Assembly: GCA_030538115.1 (NCBI GenBank)
Contig: JAUNUP010000004.1
Coordinates: 58,888 to 122,887 of the forward strand
DNA length: 64,000 nucleotides
Direction: 5' to 3'
Source: Dermatophilus congolensis
Lineage (GTDB): Bacteria; Actinomycetota; Actinomycetes; Actinomycetales; Dermatophilaceae
The number at the start of each line of letters is the position of its first letter. The stretch's first letter is position 1. Under the pieces are notes generated by a model that did no database searches, was not told the origin of the DNA, and saw nothing but the letters and a program-made list of their open reading frames with translations. Shown piece by piece: positions 24,913-47,106 of this stretch. A program made the translations under genes and the position numbers.

Positions 24913-25791
24913 TCACTGGCACGCCGCGAGCGGTTCGAACGAATACCCCTGGGTCTCAAGGGTGGCCAAGACACCGTCGAGAGCGGCGACGGTCTGGGTG
25001 CGGTCGCCGCCTCCGTCATGCATGAGGATCGTGCCGCCTGGGGAGACGTTGTCCATGATGTTGCGGGTGATGGCTTGGACGCCCGGCTGCTGCCAGTCGC
25101 GGGAATCGGCGGTCCAGCCGACCGGGGTCAGGCCGAGGGCCGCGGCCTCCCGCTTCACCGCGTCGTTCTCGAGTCCGCCCGGTGATCGCATACACGTGCT
25201 TCCGCCGATCACCTGCTCGGTGCGGCTCAACTCGCTGCGCACTCCCGCGGGGCTGAGCTTGGTCAGCCACGGATGCGTCCACGTGTGATTGCCGATCGTG
25301 TGCCCCTCCGCCCTGATCCGCTTCACGAGGTCGGGGTGCTCAGCGGCATGCTCACCGATCACGAAGAACGTGGCGCGCACGCCGTGCCGGGCGAGGATGT
25401 CGAGCACCTGGGGCGTCGACTCCTCGGGCCCGTCGTCGAAGGTCAGGTGAACGATCTTGCGCCCGGAGGCGGGCCGCCCCGACGCCGCCGCGGAAGACCT
25501 CCCGGTCGGTGCGGCGGTGGGCGCCGCAGGCTCAGTAGACACTGCCGCCTCGGTGGGCTCGTCGGCATTCGCGGAAGCCTCCGGGGTGAGCTCCGCCGCC
25601 TCCGCGGTCTGCGCGGGAGTCTCCGAGGAGACCGTGGCGACGGAGCCCCCCGGCACGGAGATGGCATCCGAGCGAGTCGCGCCGAGAGCGGTGCTGTTGC
25701 CCTTGGCAAGCTCTGCGTCCACTGCTGGAACCACGACGAGGGCCACAGTCACTGCGGCCATCACCGCAGTGACAAGTCGTCCTGACGTCAT
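24913..25791 (-). CDS. Secreted or anchored polysaccharide deacetylase (NodB domain)
   Basis: A 292-residue protein with an N-terminal hydrophobic signal/anchor (residues 5-24), a Thr/Ala/Glu-rich linker to about residue 105, then a carbohydrate esterase 4 domain. Motifs: HLTFDDGPEE (catalytic and metal Asp), GNHTWTHPWL (metal His pair), MRSPGG, and ILMHDGG. It probably removes N-acetyl groups from peptidoglycan or another surface glycan. ATG 25791 is preceded by TAGGAGGTGG. It ends 48 bases before the AI-2E gene on the same strand. Confidence 0.92.
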   Translation of the reverse strand: MTSGRLVTAVMAAVTVALVVVPAVDAELAKGNSTALGATRSDAISVPGGSVATVSSETPAQTAEAAELTPEASANADEPTEAAVSTEPAAPTAAPTGRSSAAASGRPASGRKIVHLTFDDGPEESTPQVLDILARHGVRATFFVIGEHAAEHPDLVKRIRAEGHTIGNHTWTHPWLTKLSPAGVRSELSRTEQVIGGSTCMRSPGGLENDAVKREAAALGLTPVGWTADSRDWQQPGVQAITRNIMDNVSPGGTILMHDGGGDRTQTVAALDGVLATLETQGYSFEPLAACQ

Positions 25792-32449: not shown

Positions 32450-34432
32450 TCACGCCTCCGGCAGAACGATGAACCCTGCCTCCGAGCCGTCGGGCAGCAC
32501 AACCTCCCCGGTGTCGTCGACGATGGGGCCGCGCAGGCGGATGACCGCGCCGTCGGGAGTGGTGGTCTCGGGAGGATGCGTGTCGTCGGGCAGCACGCCG
32601 CGCTGCACGGTCGGCCCCGTCTCCACGGCTTGTTCTCCGACCAGGCCGAACGCGCGATCGGCGGTGACGGATTGCGTGGTCCAGGCGCCGAGGTCGGCCA
32701 CTGCCCCCGCCCGGATGTCGACGAGTGTGCGGCCCAGCACTCCCCACGTGCCCGCGGGGGAGGCGACCCAGCCGACCTCCGTACCAGCTGCGAGGGCGGG
32801 GCCCCGGAAGCTGGCCCGCACGTCGGAGGCCCGGTCGGTGTGCACCACGACCTCCGGCGGCTTGTTACGGAAGGCCGGGTACGTGAGGATGATCGATTCG
32901 CCGGAGTAGCCGGTCACCGACGGGTGGCTGTCGGCAGGGCGGGCGTCGGCACCCGGGTTCTCCCAGGGCCGGGCTTTGCCCGCGGGGCGGCCGGCCCGCA
33001 GATGCCACCAACCGGCCGCAGAGGCAGCCGTGACCGTTCTGTCCGCACGTGCCGCCAGCGCGTAGGCGCCCTCGGGCACGGCGATCTCGGTGAGGCCATC
33101 GGAGTCGATCACGGCCACCGTCTCCGGCCCGACCCCGATGAGGGGCGCCACGCCGAGGTAGGTGACCTGCGCGTTCGTCGGCAGGTCGGCCGCGGCTACC
33201 GGTTTGCCGGCGTCGACCGACCAGGCGAGCAATCGATCGCCCACATGCAGGGCCAGGGCATCGGTCTGCGCCAACTGCGTGCGCGAGAGGTGACCGCGCA
33301 CGGGGCCGGTCGGCAACGTCACCCGCCACCGGGGTTCGCCGGTGGCTATGTCTGCCACGACGACCTCCCGATCTGTTGTGACGTAGGCGACGGCGTCGTT
33401 CAACCCGACGACGGGGCCTGCATCCGCGGTGAGGGGGCCCGTCGACCAGGTGGCCTCGCGGGCCCAGCCAGGAGGCGGGGACACCGGTAGCGCCGCAGCG
33501 AGCGAGCCGGGCCCGGAACCCGATCCGAGTTGGTGGGCCACGAGCGTGATCGCGAGAACCACCGTCACTGCTGCGGTGACGATCAGTGCCAACGACCTGC
33601 CCATCCGGCGGGGAGTGGACGTTCCGCCTTGCTGCTCCTGCGTGGTTCTGCGCCGCGCCTCGTCCATGAGTCGCTGTCGCCGAGCCGCCCGATCCTCAAC
33701 GGTGGGGCCTGATGCCTCCACGCGGCGAGAGCGAGGTGTCGGCGGCGCAGGCTCGGGAGGCGCTTCGAGCGAATCGCCTGATCGGACAGGGACCTTCGAC
33801 GCTTGAGCCGCAGCACGCCGCCCAGTTCGCTCGCGGCGAGACGACGGCGCCGAACCCCGCAGGAGTGCCCGCGGTCCAGCGGGTGCGCTCGGCTGGACAG
33901 GCACAGCCGCAGTGGCATTTCCAGGCTCAGTCGCAGCAGGAAGTGGATCGGCGTTGGCCGAAGTCGGCCGGTTCAGCAGTACCTCGGCTGCCTTGCCGAG
34001 TTCGCCGTCGAGTGGGGTCTCGGGCTGAGACCTGCTGTGTGCCAGCGTGCTGGGCACCGAGTCGGGCACAGGGTCGGGAGCGGGGTCGTCGAACGAGACG
34101 AACAGCCGGCCGTCGCGGTGGATCACCACCGAGCGCCGCTCGACATCTCCGACGACCTTGGCGCGGAGGTAGCGGTACGGCCTCCCGAACGCATCGATGC
34201 CCGCGACCCTGTCGACCATGGCGGCGACGGCGCGGATCGCGGCGTCGCGAGCGTCCTCGCCGGGCAGCGGAATGACGTCGACGCCCTCGACCACCGCTAT
34301 CTGATTGCCGACCGCGTCGACATCGAAGGCGATCTCGACGATTGTGTGCGGCGGGATCTCGTCGGGAGTGGGCGGGCTGTTCAGGTCGCGCGGGTCGAGC
34401 GGGCGCGGTACCAACGGTTGGTCGCCGCTCAT
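32450..34432 (-). CDS. Single-pass membrane protein with extracellular PQQ-like beta-propeller
   Basis: A 660-residue protein. Residues 28-120 form a compact alpha/beta domain (VEIAFDVDAVGNQIAVVEG, VVIHRDGRLFVSF) predicted cytosolic; 121-278 are Pro/Arg/Ser-rich and disordered; 281-300 is the only membrane helix; 301-660 contain repeated beta-strand units such as VVVADIATGEPRWRV and LAWSVDAGKPVAAADL, like PQQ-type propeller blades. Its ATG overlaps the stop of the large upstream gene (TGATG), so the two are translationally coupled and probably form one surface assembly. I do not recognise the whole protein. Confidence 0.78.
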   Translation of the reverse strand: MSGDQPLVPRPLDPRDLNSPPTPDEIPPHTIVEIAFDVDAVGNQIAVVEGVDVIPLPGEDARDAAIRAVAAMVDRVAGIDAFGRPYRYLRAKVVGDVERRSVVIHRDGRLFVSFDDPAPDPVPDSVPSTLAHSRSQPETPLDGELGKAAEVLLNRPTSANADPLPAATEPGNATAAVPVQPSAPAGPRALLRGSAPSSRRERTGRRAAAQASKVPVRSGDSLEAPPEPAPPTPRSRRVEASGPTVEDRAARRQRLMDEARRRTTQEQQGGTSTPRRMGRSLALIVTAAVTVVLAITLVAHQLGSGSGPGSLAAALPVSPPPGWAREATWSTGPLTADAGPVVGLNDAVAYVTTDREVVVADIATGEPRWRVTLPTGPVRGHLSRTQLAQTDALALHVGDRLLAWSVDAGKPVAAADLPTNAQVTYLGVAPLIGVGPETVAVIDSDGLTEIAVPEGAYALAARADRTVTAASAAGWWHLRAGRPAGKARPWENPGADARPADSHPSVTGYSGESIILTYPAFRNKPPEVVVHTDRASDVRASFRGPALAAGTEVGWVASPAGTWGVLGRTLVDIRAGAVADLGAWTTQSVTADRAFGLVGEQAVETGPTVQRGVLPDDTHPPETTTPDGAVIRLRGPIVDDTGEVVLPDGSEAGFIVLPEA

Positions 34433-37365
34433 CAGAACAGTGCTCGATAGACGTTGGCGGCGGATCCACCGCGTGAGGCCGACGGCTCCGAGTACAGGTC
34501 ATACGCGAGCAGACCGCGCCGGGCCATCCTCGACAGCCAGTCGTGCACATTCTGTACGTACGCGCCATTGCCCGCGGAGGCCGCCGAGCCTGGGGCGGGG
34601 CCCCATCCGCTCAGCGCGATGCGGGCCTTGCGGTCGCTGGCGAAGTCGCTCCACCAGTTCAACCCGCCTTCTCCGTTGACGGTCTTGCTCCAGTTGTCAC
34701 CGGTGTCGAGGGAGTCGATGCCGAGGATGTCGACCACGCCGTCGCCAGGCCAGGCCACCATCAGGTCGGTGGGGCTGGTCGGGCCGCCGGCGCCACGGGG
34801 ACTGCTGGGGTTCATGGCGGTGCGGTCGACGGTCCATTGCATCCGAGCCTTGGGCAGCACGCCGCGTACCGCTGCGGCCACCTGCCGGTAGCAGGCTGCG
34901 AACGCCTCCGGTTGTGTTGCCGCACCTGGGTCGCCGAGGTCGAGCACCGGCGAGGCGATCCCTGCGTCGGCGAGCGCTCGCGCGAACCCCTCCCACTGGG
35001 TGCGGTAGTCGCCCTTGCTGCAGGCCGTCAGTGTGGCGCCGCGTGTCGGCAGCAGGGGAGCGCTGATGACCTTCGTCGTCACCGACCCGCGCAGGGCGGC
35101 CTTCACGGCCGACGTCGGTGCAAGCTCTGTCCACGTCTTCGGCGCCAACGTCACGGCCGCGACAGACACCTTGGCCCGCCTCGCGGACCGCACCGTGTCG
35201 GCGTGAGCCCGTTCCGCGGCGGTGCCCGCAGCGGCTACGACTCCGCTGGCCCAGGTCGGCGTGCTCTCCGGAACGATGGGATACGACGAGACCGTCCGCC
35301 CCGCCGACCCGGTCGGCGTGGCACGGGGCGGTCGTGAACGCATGGGCGCGGGCATTGTCGGCCCGGCCACCGGCGGCCTCTTCGGGCGGATCAGGGCTGA
35401 CGGCGGAGTCGCCGGGGCGCGGCTCGGCCCGGAGTCCCGGGAGGGTGTCGTCGAGGTCGCGTCGGGACGCGGGTGCGTGGGTTGCCCTGGATTCGTCGAC
35501 TCGCCCGGTGCCTCGGATGTGCTCGGACTCGTGGTTGGAGCCGTCGTTGGAGCCGTGGTGCGAACCGAGGTTGGAGCCGGGCTCGCCTTCGGGTTCTCGG
35601 TCGAGGTCGGGCTCTCGGTTGAGGTCGGGCTCGCGGCCTCGCCCCGGTTCGCCGGCGCGGCAGGGCTCGTGAACTCGGTGCGACGCGCGGTCGGCACCGG
35701 TTGCTCGCCTCGGCGCTCCCGGGTGCGCGCATCTTCGGCGCGAGTGGCGCTACGTTCCGCGCGAACTCCGCTGTCATCAGGCTTGGCGGGTTGATCCCTC
35801 GACGTGGTCGGGCTCGGTTCCGTTCGACGTGGAGGGAACAGGCTCGGCAGGGTCGAGCGCGCCGAGCCGCCCCGCAACACGCGCGGGACTCCTTGGCGCT
35901 GAGGCAACGTCGCCCGAGCCGTCGGCCGAGCGACGGAGGGTTCGGGTGTCTTCTTCTGATCTGGCGCGACCTGCGCGACCTTTGTGCCGGTCGTGTTCGC
36001 CTTGATCGCTACCTTCCCTCCCTTGTCTTCCTTCATCGGAGGGGCCAGCTTCATTGGATTCGCAGGAAAGGCTTTCGTCGATGGTCTCGCCGGAGGGACC
36101 GCCTTCGATGGATTCACCGGACGGGTCGCCTGCGTGGCCTTCGGCTGCTCGCGAGGCTCCGTGGACTTCTCGATCTGGCCGCTGCCGTCGTCGCTGTCGC
36201 GGCGGTTCTCTTGCGCTCGCTCGCGTGCGGCCTTGGCGGCGAGCCCCCTGGCCAGCGCCGCCTTCACCTCTGAGGCGGTCTTCGCGCTCAGCGCGCTACC
36301 CCCGTTCCCGTTGGTCCGAGGCGCTGCCCGGCCAGGAACGACGGGTGCAGCGGTCGCCGTGGTCCTCGGCCCGCCCATGCCGTTGCCACCAGGTGCGGGG
36401 GCGTTCGGTTTGTCGGTTTCGTTGCGCTGTCCACCTCGGCCTACCGATCGCTGCGGAGCGTGGTCACCGGGCGTGCTCTGATCGCCTGAGTCGCGGGGCT
36501 CGGCAGCAGACGGTGCGGCTGCAGGTGGGGCGGCAGCCGGCGCGGCACCGTTGGCGAGAATCCGCCACGACCATTCGACCCGCGACGCCTCGACCGTCAC
36601 GGTCGGAGAAGGGGCCTGCGTCGGCGGAGCCGCATTGGTCGATGGAACTGGATTGGTCGGTAGAGCCGCGCTGGTTGCTGGAGGCGCACTGACCGACGAC
36701 TTTGAGGACGGATCACCTGATGCCGTGATGACCGACTCAGGTGAGGGAGAAGACGAAGTGGGCGAGACAGCCTCGGCGTTGAGCGTTTCGGCCGTCTCCG
36801 CAGCCGGAGTCTCCGTGACCTCCTGCGCCGGTGGCGAATACGACGCAGTCACCTCCGGCTGGAGCGATGGCGGCGACGTCGTTGACGATGTCGCTGATGA
36901 CTGTGCTGAAGATGGCTGTGGAGCCGATGAAGGAGCCTCCGATGACGGTTCTGCATGAAGCGTTTCCGGCTCTCGCGTGCGATCGGCCTCGGGCGCGCGG
37001 TGCGGTTGTGGCGCTTCCGTCTCGGGTGCGTGAGTCGCCTCCGGTTCGGGCGAGTGAGTCGCCTCTGGCTCGCGTCTCGGCTCCGCGGGGGCGGAGCTCA
37101 CGGAGTGGTCGTGGCTGGACTCTGCGGACGTGTGGCTCGCCGACGGCTGAGCGCTCGAGTCCGCCCTGAACTCCGCCCTCGATCCTGCGGGTGGGCCGGC
37201 CGGCTCGGGAGTGCTGCCGCTGCCGGCCGCGTCCGGCGGAGGTTCGATCGCCCGTGGTGGCTCGTCAGCCGCGGCGGTCGGGGCTGCGACGAGCCAGACC
37301 GCCAATGCTGCTCCGACCGTTCGCAGGGGCGTGCGTCGCCGATCGGCAAGGTTGTCGTGCTGCAC
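34432..37365 (-). CDS. Secreted PAST-rich stalk protein with degenerate GH26-like domain
   Basis: A 977-residue protein. Residues 1-33 are a Sec signal (cleavage likely before DEPP). Residues about 35-690 are one long Pro/Ala/Ser/Thr/Glu-rich low-complexity stalk with many short imperfect repeats. Residues about 695-977 align by eye with the GH26-like enzyme at 46030-47106: FAACYRQVAAAVRGVLP with FRAAYRRVVTVMRKVSP, GVVDILGIDSLD with DVVDLIGVDVYD, and LLAYDLYSEP with LVAELYFNEP. Both catalytic positions differ: Glu173 of the enzyme aligns with Pro813 here, and Glu292 (PEWG) with Gly920 (SGWG). It is probably a non-catalytic glycan binder. GTG 37365 follows GAAAGGTGG. Confidence 0.8.
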   Translation of the reverse strand: MQHDNLADRRRTPLRTVGAALAVWLVAAPTAAADEPPRAIEPPPDAAGSGSTPEPAGPPAGSRAEFRADSSAQPSASHTSAESSHDHSVSSAPAEPRREPEATHSPEPEATHAPETEAPQPHRAPEADRTREPETLHAEPSSEAPSSAPQPSSAQSSATSSTTSPPSLQPEVTASYSPPAQEVTETPAAETAETLNAEAVSPTSSSPSPESVITASGDPSSKSSVSAPPATSAALPTNPVPSTNAAPPTQAPSPTVTVEASRVEWSWRILANGAAPAAAPPAAAPSAAEPRDSGDQSTPGDHAPQRSVGRGGQRNETDKPNAPAPGGNGMGGPRTTATAAPVVPGRAAPRTNGNGGSALSAKTASEVKAALARGLAAKAARERAQENRRDSDDGSGQIEKSTEPREQPKATQATRPVNPSKAVPPARPSTKAFPANPMKLAPPMKEDKGGKVAIKANTTGTKVAQVAPDQKKTPEPSVARPTARATLPQRQGVPRVLRGGSARSTLPSLFPPRRTEPSPTTSRDQPAKPDDSGVRAERSATRAEDARTRERRGEQPVPTARRTEFTSPAAPANRGEAASPTSTESPTSTENPKASPAPTSVRTTAPTTAPTTSPSTSEAPGESTNPGQPTHPRPDATSTTPSRDSGPSRAPATPPSALIRPKRPPVAGPTMPAPMRSRPPRATPTGSAGRTVSSYPIVPESTPTWASGVVAAAGTAAERAHADTVRSARRAKVSVAAVTLAPKTWTELAPTSAVKAALRGSVTTKVISAPLLPTRGATLTACSKGDYRTQWEGFARALADAGIASPVLDLGDPGAATQPEAFAACYRQVAAAVRGVLPKARMQWTVDRTAMNPSSPRGAGGPTSPTDLMVAWPGDGVVDILGIDSLDTGDNWSKTVNGEGGLNWWSDFASDRKARIALSGWGPAPGSAASAGNGAYVQNVHDWLSRMARRGLLAYDLYSEPSASRGGSAANVYRALF

Positions 37366-37829
37366 GGCGTGCCACCTTTCGGGTCGCTGAGGGGTAAGGC
37401 GAGCGGGCGGATACGAGGGAAACTAGCGCCTGCAGCGCCCCGCCGTGAGTCGCTGTAAGAGTCATCCACACGCCTCTGACCTGCGAATACGAGGTAATTC
37501 AACGATATGGAGCAGGGCTTCACCTGTGGATGAGTGCTCGGTTGCCGACCGCCGCCTGTGGGCGTTGAGTCCGAGAAGGCCCGGCGCGTCCGTGAGCGAT
37601 GCAAGCGGGAAGGCATGGAGGCATTGCAGGTTCGTTTACGGGCCGGTTACCGCCCCGTAAACGACCCGGCTGAGACACGTGAACTTGCCCACGAACTTTC
37701 TGTGGTCGGTTGCGGATCCAAGTGCAACCCCTGACAGTGACAAGTGTTCGTGGCCGTAGAGCCGTCGAATCGTTGCTTGGTCGTGACCCGCGACGGGCGT
37801 TGTCGGTGTACAAGACCCAGGAGGCAGGG
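37366..37829. other. Intergenic region with palindrome and DnaA-box-like pair
   Basis: This 464-base gap separates the stalk protein from the orphan HTH gene. It contains an inverted pair of TCATCCACA (37462-37470 and, on the other strand, 37525-37533), the 33-bp near-palindrome at 37632-37664 and, just before the HTH gene, CAGGAGG as ribosome site. No gene is convincing. Confidence 0.5.
37632..37664. repeat. 33-bp near-perfect palindrome
   Basis: Outer arms TCGTTTACGGG and CCCGTAAACGA are perfect; the core is C-CGGT-T-ACCG-C, so only one opposed pair (C/C) and the central base break symmetry. It lies 166 bases before the orphan antitoxin-like gene. Likely roles are an operator, a partition or a resolution site. 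Confidence 0.6.
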
Positions 37830-38291
37830 ATGCCGCGCAAGTCCGCTCCGGTGGCCGAAAGTAAGCGTGCTGTCGTGCACGTGAGTGCCCGTGAGGTCGA
37901 GGCATGTCACAGGTCGCTGCAAGAGGCGCGAGGCAAGGGCAGGGCGCTCTATTTCGTCACGGAGAGGGGCACGCGCGTAGCAGTGCCGCCGGAGGTTTCC
38001 GACCTGCTGGAACGCGTGATGTTGGGTGCTGTGACGGGCAAGCCGCTACGGGTCGAGCCGCTCCCCGAGCAACTCACCACGACGCAGGCCGCTGACCTGC
38101 TGGGTATTTCGCGTCCGACGCTGATGAAGCGGATTCGCGAGGGGGAGTTCGTGGCCACGAAAGTCGGTACGCATCACCGGTTGGCCACCAGAGACGTCAT
38201 CGCCGCCCGCATTCGCGCGGAGCAACGCGAACGTCGAGCGGCGGTACAGGTTCTTCAGCGGGGTGCTGGGGCCATCGTCAACAGGCCCTGA
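37830..38291 (+). CDS. Orphan antitoxin-like protein with excisionase-type HTH
   Basis: A 153-residue protein with the same architecture as the antitoxin at 16007-16465: an N-terminal beta domain ending in RVAVPPEVSDLL, then the HTH TTTQAADLLGISRPTLMK followed by KVGTHHRLATRDVIAA. Unlike that gene, no PIN toxin follows; the next gene is on the opposite strand. ATG 37830 is preceded by GGAGG; the frame is open upstream to 37710 but contains no domain. It could regulate neighbours through the upstream palindrome or be a stranded antitoxin. Confidence 0.8.
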   Translation: MPRKSAPVAESKRAVVHVSAREVEACHRSLQEARGKGRALYFVTERGTRVAVPPEVSDLLERVMLGAVTGKPLRVEPLPEQLTTTQAADLLGISRPTLMKRIREGEFVATKVGTHHRLATRDVIAARIRAEQRERRAAVQVLQRGAGAIVNRP

Positions 38292-38348: not shown

Positions 38349-38819
38349 TCAGATGTAGGGACCGAAGCGGCTGCGCACGGCCTCGCGGGTGGGGTGGTGG
38401 TCGCCGTTCTTGACCATGATCGCGTCGGCGATCTGCTGAAACGACAGGCCGCGGCGGTAGGCGTTACGAACGCCCTGCTTAAGGCGGGCATCGTTGCCGG
38501 TGGCGCGAGCCTGCTCGTCGAGTGACGTGAGGTTGCGCTGGATCTGACGTACGACGGAGCGGGGCACGTGCTTGGCCTCGCGTTCCTTGAGCCATTCGCC
38601 GATTTCGTCGGCGTCCCACAGGATTCGGCGACCCCATTTGAGGCCGGTCGGGCTGGGCATCTGTTCGCGGCTGGCCATGCCGCGGATGGTCGACGCGGGG
38701 ACCGACTTCTTGCCGGTGATCTTCGCCAGCGCCGCGGCGATCATCTCCGCAGTCATGTAGCCCTCAGGTGCGCCGCTGGCTGACCCGACGGTGTCGGGTA
38801 GACCCTTGGTGGTGGTCAT
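38349..38819 (-). CDS. Putative HTH (AlpA/excisionase-like) DNA-binding protein
   Basis: A 156-residue protein. Residues 22-77 contain a helix-turn-helix of the phage-regulator type, with SVPASTIRGMASREQMPSP and RRILWDADEIGEWLKEREAK. The second half (LSFQQIADAIMVKNGDHHPT) is a second helix-turn-helix-like segment. Such proteins are common on plasmids and integrative elements. The start ATG 38819 lies on the edge of the AT-richer region shared with the WhiB-like gene. Identity beyond DNA binding is not certain. Confidence 0.68.
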   Translation of the reverse strand: MTTTKGLPDTVGSASGAPEGYMTAEMIAAALAKITGKKSVPASTIRGMASREQMPSPTGLKWGRRILWDADEIGEWLKEREAKHVPRSVVRQIQRNLTSLDEQARATGNDARLKQGVRNAYRRGLSFQQIADAIMVKNGDHHPTREAVRSRFGPYI

Positions 38820-39326
38820 GCCTGGTGGCCTCGCTTTCCGTGCTCAAGTCCGCTCACTGTAGGAGCGGCCACTGGTCGCGGCAACAGACCCACACGCCCC
38901 AGGTGCCCTCGAGGAGTCGTTGCCGTCTCAATTAATGGAATTTCGAATGTGACCCACGTCACACAGGTATGGGTATGTACTGAACGAACGTCCAGAACAC
39001 GGGACTGTATAGACAAAATCCTTCTCCGATTGCGGATGACATCTCGCCACCGGCAGCGTTATTGAATCTATCGTCTTGATCGTCTGTCCAACAAGTGAAT
39101 TCAATCGACCGTCCAACTTTGTCGCTCCTGTTCCAAGGTGCCTTCGGGCGCTGCTTCCCCATCACGGGGATCTCGGGACGCGGGGCGTTGGGAGCCCTTC
39201 ATGACTTCATCGAGCCGTGTCCATCTGGACGGTTGTATGGAAACTCATGTTGACGACGGCAGCGCAGAATCCCCAGACTCGACATCGTTGATGCGAGACG
39301 AACGACGCACGTTCTTGGGGGGACAG
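38820..39326. other. AT-richer divergent control region with CRP/GlxR site
   Basis: A 507-base non-coding stretch, markedly less GC-rich than the window between about 38930 and 39130. It holds the TGTGA-N6-TCACA site at 38948-38963, two GTCCAAC repeats near 39087 and 39110, and probably the promoters of the WhiB-like and HTH genes. The long leader before the WhiB-like start is typical of whiB genes. Confidence 0.5.
38948..38963. promoter_or_regulatory. Perfect CRP/GlxR-type operator
   Basis: TGTGA-CCCACG-TCACA is a full match to the CRP/GlxR consensus TGTGA-N6-TCACA, centred between the divergent HTH and WhiB-like genes. Confidence 0.6.
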
Positions 39327-39854
39327 ATGCGCACCATGACTGAAGACCGCTCTGCGGCGACTCTGACCGAGCCCAGTGGCACGACTGGGCTCTCGATGAA
39401 CTCGATCAAGGCTCGCCTGGAGAGTGACCCGCTGCGCCTCGAAGAGGCCGCGGCCTGCCGCCAGTCGTCCACCGGAATCTCGGCGAACGACTGGACTCCG
39501 GAGTACGAAGAAGACCGCGTGCCGCGCCACCTGCGCTCCATCTGCGATTCTTGCGCGCTGTGGGAGGCGTGCCTGGTCGCGGCCCTGCGCATGGACGACA
39601 TCGGCTACCGCGCTTCGATGACCACGCGTCAGCGCCGCGAGCGTTTCCCGGAGCTGATCGCGGCCTCGCGGCCCACCGCGCGTTCGGTCTCGGTGCCGAT
39701 CCGTCGCGGCGGCACCGACCGCGACCGCACGCCGACGCACCCGAAGGGCGCCGGCTCGTTGAACACCTACCGGCGGGGTTGCCGGTGCGACGAGTGCCGC
39801 GGCCACAACGCGGCTGCACGTCGTCGCGAGCGCGCTCGCGCCTCCGCCTCCTGA
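39327..39854 (+). CDS. WhiB-like iron-sulfur protein with extra C-terminal Cys motif
   Basis: A 175-residue Wbl protein. The four cluster cysteines are Cys44, Cys73, Cys76 and Cys82 (CDSCALWEAC), with normal spacing. The usual GVWGG turn is replaced by DIGYRAS, so DNA binding may differ. The C terminus carries a second motif, GCRCDECRGHN, seen in some phage and actinobacterial proteins, plus an Arg-rich tail. ATG 39327 is chosen because GGGGGGA precedes it; ATG 39336 and upstream codons are possible. The ParA-like gene follows 9 bases later. Confidence 0.85.
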   Translation: MRTMTEDRSAATLTEPSGTTGLSMNSIKARLESDPLRLEEAAACRQSSTGISANDWTPEYEEDRVPRHLRSICDSCALWEACLVAALRMDDIGYRASMTTRQRRERFPELIAASRPTARSVSVPIRRGGTDRDRTPTHPKGAGSLNTYRRGCRCDECRGHNAAARRRERARASAS

Positions 39855-39863
39855 GCCGGGGCC

Positions 39864-40982
39864 GTGACCCGCAGTGAGGGGAGCCCCGTGAGCTCCCCGG
39901 GATCGGCTGACGGCGCGGCGTCGATACAGCGCATGCTCACCGACGCCCCGCCCGACAAGCTCGACCAGCGCAAACCCGCTTCTGCGAGCGCTGCCGACCG
40001 GACTGACCCCTCACAGTCCGCAGATTCGGCAGGGCCGCCAGATTCGGGGGCGGGGCAGGTTTCGGCCGACTGGCTGCCGCCTGAAATCGACCTGCCGATG
40101 CTGAAGCCGCCTGTGCCCCGGCCTCGTTCAGGGTGGCGCAGCCTCGCCTACGACGTGACCGCGGGCCGCTGGAACCCGGGCCCGTCGCCGAGGGAAGTCC
40201 GAGAACGCGACCGTGAGGAGCAGATCGCGCGGCAACTGCAGCGCAGGCACGTCACGGCGTTCTTCTGCCTCAAAGGCGGCATCAGCAAGACCTCGACCAC
40301 GGCGGCGACATCGCTGGCGCTCGCCGACCTGCGGCCCGACCCGGTGTTCGCGATCGACGCGAACCCCGACGCCGGTGACCTGGTCGAGCGGCTGGTCGGT
40401 AGTTCGCACTCCGGCATCACGTCGCTGGCACGCAACATCGATTCGATCCGCAGCCTCGAAGACCTGTCGCGGTACACCGTGACGACGGGGCGCCTGACGA
40501 TGCTGCCGGGCGAGCCGAATCCGGTGCTCGGCGATTCGCTGCAGGCTGGGGATTTCGAGCGCGTCCTCGATGTCGTCGGTACGTATTACTCACTCGTGCA
40601 GGTCGATTGCGGCACGGGGGTGACGCATCCGCTGATGCGGGGCATCCTCGCGCACACCGACACAGCCGTCATCCCGGCGGGCTGGTCGATCACGGGTGCG
40701 CGTCGTGCTGCCGACACGATCGACTGGCTCGCGGCCAACGGATTCGAGTCGCTCGCAGAGACGAGCATCGTCGTGCTCACGGCCAAGGACATCGTGAGCC
40801 GCAACGTCGATCGCGACGCGGTTCTGCACCACCTCCGCAGGGCGGCAGACCTCGTCGTCGTGCCGGCCGACCCGCATGTCGCCGACGGCGCGCGCCTGCG
40901 CTGGGAGCAGCTCCAACGACCCACACAGGAGGCGTACCTCGATATCGCCGCAGCAATCACGCGGCGGTTCGAGGCCGAATGA
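39864..40982 (+). CDS. EspI/ParA-like MinD-family ATPase with altered Walker A
   Basis: A 372-residue protein: a Pro/Ser-rich head to about residue 85, then a segment (RSLAYDVTAGRWNPGPSPRE) like the linker of ESX-associated EspI ATPases, then the ATPase. The deviant Walker A is K137-G-G-I-S-K-T, with Ser141 where a Gly is normal; VFAIDANPDAGDL and LVQVDCGTG are the later motifs. These proteins bind ATP and often position plasmids or secretion machines. No type VII secretion genes are in the window. GTG 39864 follows the WhiB stop by 9 bases, making a small operon. Confidence 0.85.
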   Translation: MTRSEGSPVSSPGSADGAASIQRMLTDAPPDKLDQRKPASASAADRTDPSQSADSAGPPDSGAGQVSADWLPPEIDLPMLKPPVPRPRSGWRSLAYDVTAGRWNPGPSPREVRERDREEQIARQLQRRHVTAFFCLKGGISKTSTTAATSLALADLRPDPVFAIDANPDAGDLVERLVGSSHSGITSLARNIDSIRSLEDLSRYTVTTGRLTMLPGEPNPVLGDSLQAGDFERVLDVVGTYYSLVQVDCGTGVTHPLMRGILAHTDTAVIPAGWSITGARRAADTIDWLAANGFESLAETSIVVLTAKDIVSRNVDRDAVLHHLRRAADLVVVPADPHVADGARLRWEQLQRPTQEAYLDIAAAITRRFEAE

Positions 40983-46029: not shown

Positions 46030-47106
46030 ATGAAACGCACTCGCCTGGCCGTTGCGACAACAGCGGCCGCCACCATCACTGCGCTCGCGCTCACCTCGGT
46101 GCCGGCTGACGCCGCACCCGCGCCTGCTGCGGCTGGAGCCGCCGCCAAGGCTGCTGCGATGCCGGCCGCGAAGCCCGGCTCCGCGAAGCTGCGGGCGCTG
46201 CCGCGCAAGCTGTCGAACAAGCCGTGGCGCTCGGGCGCGTGGACCGGCGGCACGCTTAGTGGCACCCGCACCGCGGCCTTCGGCACATGGCGAGGCACGC
46301 CCACCGACGTGGCGATGACCTACCCCGAGCGCGACACCTGGCGCGACATGCAGACCTCGATCTGGCACATCGACACCTACAAGAACTTCCGCGGCACCCT
46401 CATGTACGGACTGCCGCTGCTGCCCGAGCAGGGCGGGGCCACCCTCGCCGACGTGGCCGCAGGCAAGCACGACGCCACGTTCAACAAGATCGCCCGCGAC
46501 CTCAAATCGCGCGGACGCGGCAACGCGATCATCCGCGTGGGCTGGGAGGCGAACGGCGACTGGTACCCGTGGCACGGCACCGCCGCCAACGCGGCCGACT
46601 TCAGGGCCGCCTACCGTCGCGTCGTCACAGTGATGCGCAAGGTGTCGCCGCAGTTCGTCATGGCGTTCGACGTGAGTGCCGGGTACGGCATCAAGGGCCA
46701 GACGCATCGCCTCGACAGCCTCACCAAGCTCTACCCGGGCAACGACGTGGTCGACCTCATCGGCGTCGACGTGTACGACTGGCACAACACCGGCGCACGC
46801 AACATGACCGAATGGCGCCGCGCCATCCGCCCCGCCCGCGGTCCGGGCATCGCCGACGTCGCCGCCTTCGCTCGCGCCAAGGGCAAGGGATTCGTCGTGC
46901 CCGAATGGGGCGTCGCGAACCACTCCTCCGGCGGTCACGGCGACAACCCCTACTTCGTTCGGATGATGTACACGTTCTTCTCGCAGAACCGCGACATCCT
47001 TGTCGCCGAGCTCTACTTCAACGAGCCCGACCCGTACATCAGCAGCGGCATCTGGGAGTCGAACGCGAACCCGCGGTCCGCAGCCGCCTACCGGCAGCTC
47101 TGGTAG
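46030..47106 (+). CDS. Secreted GH26-like glycoside hydrolase
   Basis: A 358-residue secreted enzyme. Residues 1-28 are a Sec signal; 29-65 a Pro/Ala/Lys linker; the rest a GH26-type barrel. Putative acid/base Glu173 is in RVGWEANGDWYPW (compare HEMNGDWYPW in mannanases) and putative nucleophile Glu292 in FVVPEWGVA. GH26 enzymes mostly cleave beta-mannans. ATG 46030 is preceded by AGGGGA. manA follows after 121 bases, suggesting mannose use. The C-terminal domain of the 34432-37365 protein is its degenerate relative. Confidence 0.85.
   Translation: MKRTRLAVATTAAATITALALTSVPADAAPAPAAAGAAAKAAAMPAAKPGSAKLRALPRKLSNKPWRSGAWTGGTLSGTRTAAFGTWRGTPTDVAMTYPERDTWRDMQTSIWHIDTYKNFRGTLMYGLPLLPEQGGATLADVAAGKHDATFNKIARDLKSRGRGNAIIRVGWEANGDWYPWHGTAANAADFRAAYRRVVTVMRKVSPQFVMAFDVSAGYGIKGQTHRLDSLTKLYPGNDVVDLIGVDVYDWHNTGARNMTEWRRAIRPARGPGIADVAAFARAKGKGFVVPEWGVANHSSGGHGDNPYFVRMMYTFFSQNRDILVAELYFNEPDPYISSGIWESNANPRSAAAYRQLW

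Follow-up and report, generated by a model that had tools for sequence, protein, structure and literature searches.

A GH26-type pseudoglycosidase on a long secreted stalk, encoded with a putative membrane propeller in Dermatophilus congolensis

Why should a bacterium keep a glycosidase barrel that has lost its catalytic residues, and carry it at the end of a long secreted stalk? The question is raised by a 64,000-nucleotide stretch of Dermatophilus congolensis DNA (contig JAUNUP010000004.1, positions 58,888 to 122,887; here called the window), which encodes the stalk protein P0002 and, on the same strand, the protein P0003, whose start overlaps the P0002 stop by one base (TGATG). The C-terminal head of P0002 has the sequence features of a pseudoglycosidase, with the predicted fold kept and the catalytic residues lost in a conserved family. 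P0002 is probably a secreted pseudoglycosidase working with the co-encoded membrane propeller P0003 as a cell-envelope module. An earlier note on the window, made from the sequence, had missed this propeller, and also that paralogues lie in secretion and plasmid loci.

The P0002 frame begins with a GTG at 37365, with AAAGGTGG located upstream, and ends with a stop at 34434-34432. Support for its being a coding frame came from one relative of full length, P0004, a protein of 926 residues with a signal peptide (by eye), a stalk and 67% identity in the head; of the 7,995 candidates scored in a capped search, no other matched at E<=0.001. N-termini similar to that of P0002 were also seen, by eye, in Mobilicoccus relatives. 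Residues 41-690 contained 17% Pro, 16.5% Ala, 13% Ser and 11% Thr. The head aligned with P0001, a GH26-like enzyme of the same window, with a Smith-Waterman score of 151, and 500 shuffles of the head gave 45.6 +/- 7.5 with a maximum of 79. The order of signal peptide, long Pro/Ala/Ser/Thr-rich stalk and GH26-like head described in the earlier note was borne out by the translation, the composition and this alignment.

No Pfam or NCBIfam match was obtained for P0002 at E<=1, so that the cut-off of GH26 (PF02156) was not reached, and the PDB contained no related sequence, with three weak matches only (E ~0.5). The link to GH26 therefore rests on the P0001 alignment and the predicted fold. In the AlphaFold2 model, compared by Foldseek, the head formed a (beta/alpha)8 barrel of the GH26 type, in agreement with the barrel proposed before, and no other fold was found. 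The closest enzymes were the GH26 lichenase CtLic26 (PDB 2v3g/2bvd) and AlXyn26A (7xjr), from which the head differed by the absence of both catalytic glutamates, a shortened acid/base loop and the gain of a conserved pair of cysteines.

P0001 scored above the Pfam GH26 cut-off, and its E173 and E292 aligned with the Glu residues in the HEANGDWYPW and AEF motifs of CtLic26; we take these two residues to be the catalytic pair. Glu292 was aligned to Gly920 of P0002, while Glu173 stood opposite a gap beside Asp812-Pro813, with Asp812 one column on, and the WEANGDWYPW loop carrying the acid/base was absent from the head. The comparison was extended to 33 domains, consisting of 14 GH26-like domains (P0001, one from L041 and one each from 12 of 22 loci, with L012, L017, L019-L023 and L025-L027 left out), 14 heads of the window type and five heads from secretion or plasmid loci. 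The alignment omitted P0008 (99% identity with the head of the window), and the L068 head was compared separately and entered neither the entropy count nor the tree. Both catalytic columns contained Glu in all 14 comparison domains, and neither did in any of the 15 window-type heads (14 aligned and L068) or the five secretion/plasmid-type heads, in line with the earlier claim that both positions had been lost. At the nucleophile column the 15 heads contained Gly, Ala, Arg (L040-L043 and L068) or Asp (L044). Since both GH26 glutamates were lost across the family, GH26 catalysis by these heads is very unlikely. An alternative placing of two catalytic carboxylates, which the earlier note had named as a refutation, was not found for the window in the 33-domain alignment, and only L044, a distant relative, had Asp at both columns. 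Further cases that make the loss less clear-cut were the L046 head, where Asp occupies the acid/base position that ends strand 4, and P0009 and P0010, each with a Glu one column away from it. The Mobilicoccus heads of L040-L042 retained part of the acid/base loop as MNxxGxPW.

In the tree, which was unrooted and had two long rows, pseudo-heads and enzymes were split by a branch with 100/98 support, which fits a single loss of the catalytic residues. About 30 positions were conserved among the heads yet different in the enzymes. Cys782 and Cys825, whose sequence conservation is given in Table 1, may form a disulfide.

In P0003 a small N-terminal domain is followed by a linker of low confidence, a putative transmembrane helix and a C-terminal part that was modelled as a propeller of the BamB/PQQ and WD40-type class. 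It differed from BamB/PQQ propellers by the additional N-terminal domain and the putative helix, and no family was above the cut-off in Pfam or NCBIfam (PQQ_2, 19.2 bits against 27.6); no single type of propeller stood out in the fold comparison. At least 11 relatives were present among the 7,997 candidates scored, of which a single one, a Kineosphaera limosa hypothetical protein, carried a name. The search for P0003 itself covered three plasmid records and the genomes G001-G008, and G009-G046 were covered through the head search alone. The order of head and then propeller was kept in all eight other genomes in which both genes were visible (L040-L044, L046, L067 and L068); the G007 contig starts inside the propeller gene. 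Among 40 genomes of the family, including G001 and G002, a head-profile match of any kind was present in six and a window-type head in four (G001, G002, G014 and G021).

Paralogues of both proteins were found directly behind eccC of type VII secretion. In four Mobilicoccus genomes the order was two WXG100 genes, an EccD-like gene, eccC, a propeller, a stalked GH26 protein with both Glu, a dead head and an alpha/beta hydrolase. The EccD-like gene was just under the Pfam cut-off in L011 and L016 and gave a blast match in L015 and L088; eccC in L011 was above both NCBIfam cut-offs, and EccCa was above its cut-off in G001-G004. The hydrolase matched Pfam in L011, with similar frames in the other Mobilicoccus loci, and the dead head of L009 and the eccC of L015 were each split between frames. 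EccC was above the cut-off in 11 of 46 genomes. EccB, searched in 14 of the 46, was matched in six and in none of the four Mobilicoccus genomes with the eccC-propeller locus. By its position and presumed topology only, the propeller is a candidate for the place of EccB. G017 contained EccC without an EccB match and with no propeller labelled within 18 kb around eccC, so a missing EccB is not confined to genomes with a propeller. In the 64-kb window, tblastn with the Mobilicoccus proteins found no EccC, EccD or WXG100 gene.

An 86-kb contig of M. caccae contained the set of propeller, GH26 protein and dead head together with an SSB protein and a VirB4-like ATPase, which matched AAA_10 with 56.4 bits. 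Two near-identical copies of the set were present on this contig (L024, L025). Distant propellers on Cellulosimicrobium and Curtobacterium plasmids adjoin an annotated M15 peptidase and lie near SCO6880 and TraM-recognition or conjugative-transfer genes. Two divergent GH26-like genes were also seen side by side in L010 (3345-5657), with a similar pair in L072 (4999-8072). In L085 (1341-2240) a divergent secreted-looking protein beside WXG100 genes had an HVHVSF motif, M15-like by eye, and no Pfam match at E<=0.05.

The sister pairs in the type VII locus and on the plasmid-like contig point to a part of an envelope machine rather than a decayed enzyme. What recurs is a membrane propeller next to a secreted hydrolase that is directed at wall or glycan, or next to the dead form of such a hydrolase. 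In the module of P0002 and P0003, a GH26-derived barrel without the GH26 cutting mechanism would form the tip of a long, flexible stalk, and the propeller outside the membrane would be the membrane-side dock that holds the stalk, possibly via its Trp motif. Paired Trp residues were present in five of eight stalks, as EWSWRIL in the window and P0004, SWSW in L068 and WWTALF in L040 and L042, and in a Trp-poor stalk such a motif is a candidate docking site. The stalk would give the head reach into or through the wall, and the target of the head would be either a polymer of the wall or surface or a further protein of the envelope; in this way an envelope machine would be positioned. The topology, the physical interaction of P0002 and P0003, the tether and the binding target of the head are what we infer here. 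That the stalk spans the wall, as the earlier note supposed, is unproven: the chain ends in NVYRALF directly after the barrel and an LPXTG-like anchor (LPxT[GAS]) was not found in the P0002 sequence, so any tether must come from elsewhere.

Several observations weigh against such a module. The model of P0003 was weak overall (predicted local distance difference test, 54.6), and weak outside the propeller. The paired-Trp motif was missing in three of the eight stalks (L041, L044 and P0014, which is partial). No EccC above the cut-off accompanied the pair in G006, G008, G014 and G021 or the propeller in G007; G006 did have an EccC-like match, which at 284 bits fell short of the cut-off of 509, and the genomes G007 and G008 are fragmentary. 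With these five genomes, dependence of the pair on type VII secretion was rejected; the pair seems not to need such a system, and a role in secretion that the loci of the paralogues suggest may not apply to it. The pair in G014 (L068) and G001 (L040) was not beside the ParA, WhiB-like and helix-turn-helix genes that adjoin it elsewhere. In G021 (L067, 7790-10091) the signal peptide and part of the stalk lie in a different frame from the head, and P0014, encoded by this genome, starts inside the stalk. The old active-site face was the least conserved class in the 14 heads, with a mean entropy of 1.64 bits for its loops against 1.47 for the bottom loops, 1.35 for the helices and 1.15 for the strands. 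The ratio of nonsynonymous to synonymous substitution rates (dN/dS), a crude estimate, was 0.27-0.59 for heads within Mobilicoccus and 0.60-0.84 between genera (unsaturated pairs without L067), so the constraint on the head is modest; three between-genus pairs with L067 gave ~0.23 at a dS near 3, and a further three pairs were saturated.

These observations bear also on other readings of the head. It is possible, though doubtful, that the head is a lectin-like adhesin with a sugar pocket, which binds a glycan on its own surface, another cell or the host, the propeller just helping export or anchoring. Glycan-binding pseudoglycosidases such as YKL-39 are known (PMC7828330), and residues such as W207, N212 and W220 (model numbering) were among the near-invariant aromatic and polar residues of the heads. 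Glycan binding is possible. However, the beta-to-alpha loops of the pocket face belong to the least conserved class, a pattern that lends no support to a single sugar pocket common to the heads, and P0002 has no LPXTG-like anchor of its own. From the non-catalytic glycan-binding or adhesion head of the earlier note, the loss of GH26 catalysis stood, and the glycan pocket found little favour on this face. A protein receptor similar to klotho is a rather unlikely reading with a precedent in klotho itself (PMC12665127 and PMC7828330). Here a peptide or disordered tail, which might belong to the propeller or to some secreted partner, would be bound at the pseudo-active site or on a different face. 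A receptor would suit the adjacency of head and propeller genes wherever both were visible and the positions that separate heads from enzymes, but its partner is hypothetical. Propellers often bind peptides.

A new catalytic activity, gained by way of other carboxylates such as Asp809 or Glu960, is improbable. Asp was present at the Asp809 position in 13 of the 14 heads, with Arg in all 14 comparison enzymes, and Glu960 in 12 of 14; the Asp pair of L044 and the shifted Glu of P0009 and P0010 would agree with such a gain. On the other hand, Glu960 sits after strand 8, and among the 14 aligned heads only that of L044 had a carboxylate at the nucleophile column or up to two columns from it, the separately compared L068 head having Arg there. 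That the gene is decaying without function is hardly credible: the split G021 frame, the fast divergence of the stalk and the between-genus dN/dS would agree with it, but the frame is intact in the window and P0004, the adjacency with the propeller is conserved, dN/dS was below 1 in all unsaturated pairs, and the dead heads form one old clade.

The neighbourhood of the pair (Table 1) was similar in several genomes. Genes for ParA, WhiB-like and helix-turn-helix proteins adjoin the pair in the window, L041, L042, L044 and L067, and in L043, L045 and L046 the neighbourhood is interrupted where the contig ends. Six flanking genes were matched in a Dermatophilus metagenome-assembled genome (L045), five of them 74-82% identical to those of the window and one 55%, which suggests that the window is from a relative of that genus. 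Strong matches to P0007 (E<1e-120) were present in nine of the 46 genomes, namely eight with the pair and G007; since these genomes look like one clade, the co-occurrence is not independent evidence of function. A mobile-element origin was considered because P0007 has relatives on plasmids (186 records), but the synteny shared with L041, L042, L044 and L067 suggests a settled chromosomal locus. Megablast of the pair, and tblastn of the head against plasmids, gave no match, and no relative was found in an initial scan of genome contigs. For a second P0007 paralogue, in five genomes, the tested neighbours were a REase-domain protein, a NAGPA-domain protein or pieces of helicases, not propellers. 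P0006 showed by eye a C..CxxCx5C pattern and an additional Cys-containing tail. Between P0002 and P0005, an excisionase-type DNA-binding open reading frame (37710-38291, plus strand) matched TIGR01764 with 37.7 bits (cut-off 28.8), and farther off a polysaccharide deacetylase domain (24913-25791, minus strand; PF01522, 127.9 bits) belonged to a protein that looked secreted by eye.

Table 1. Positions of the stalk protein, its propeller partner and other features in the window
Feature	Position	Strand	Basis or remark
P0003, partner membrane protein	32450..34432	-	660 aa
P0003 beta-propeller, residues 345-660, presumed extracytoplasmic	32453..33400	-	model, fold comparison
P0003 putative transmembrane helix, residues 279-303	33524..33598	-	sequence; helix in model
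P0003 small N-terminal domain, ~residues 30-115, presumed cytosolic	34088..34345	-	similar stretch in L030/L044, L067
P0002, secreted stalk protein ending in the pseudo-GH26 head	34432..37365	-	977 aa; translation and relative P0004
P0002 pseudo-GH26 (beta/alpha)8 head, residues 703-977	34435..35259	-	AlphaFold2, Foldseek, tree
Gly920 at GH26 nucleophile position (Glu in GH26; end of strand 7)	34606..34608	-	alignment
Cys782-Cys825 span	34891..35022	-	14/14 heads; 1/14 GH26-like domains at each position
Asp809, end of strand 4, beside lost acid/base loop	34939..34941	-	Arg there in 14/14 GH26-like domains
P0002 Pro/Ala/Ser/Thr-rich stalk, residues 35-690 (~655 residues)	35296..37263	-	presumed disordered from composition
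P0002 mid-stalk Trp motif EWSWRIL, residues 264-270	36556..36576	-	holds the stalk's only two Trp
P0002 signal peptide, residues 1-34, AxA site	37264..37365	-	by eye
P0005, helix-turn-helix-like protein upstream of pair	38349..38819	-	assigned by eye, without a Pfam match; 74-80% identity in four loci with shared synteny
P0006, WhiB-like protein	39138..39854	+	Pfam Whib 20.3 bits, cut-off 23.6
P0007, MinD/ParA-like ATPase	39864..40982	+	adjoins pair in four other loci
P0001, GH26-like enzyme with both catalytic Glu (E173, E292); comparison protein	46030..47106	+	Pfam, CtLic26 alignment

YKL-39, of family GH18, and klotho are animal pseudoglycosidases, and P0002 is similar to them in a glycosidase fold without catalytic residues that was kept over long evolution (PMC7828330); it differs in being bacterial, GH26-derived, stalked and paired with a membrane propeller. 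Neither the cassette nor a GH26 pseudoenzyme family was described among the literature matches listed, which consisted mostly of titles and the beginnings of abstracts. P0002 belongs to a family of GH26 pseudoenzymes whose active sister group is clear. From type VII secretion the window differs in that none of its genes was found there by tblastn, and the four Mobilicoccus genomes differ in having no EccB match. A bolder proposal, which we consider unlikely, is that, in a reduced type VII system of Mobilicoccus, the propeller family of P0003 has taken over the extracytoplasmic place of EccB, with the stalked GH26 protein and its dead twin as wall-crossing subunits and the window pair as a freestanding relative. 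If this were true, a propeller and a wall-directed hydrolase, or its dead form, would be a wall-crossing device common to type VII secretion, conjugative-type plasmids and this locus. How secretion and conjugation machines cross the thick Gram-positive wall is poorly known, and this conserved pair, in which a dead glycosidase on a stalk accompanies a membrane propeller, offers concrete proteins with which such crossing may be studied.
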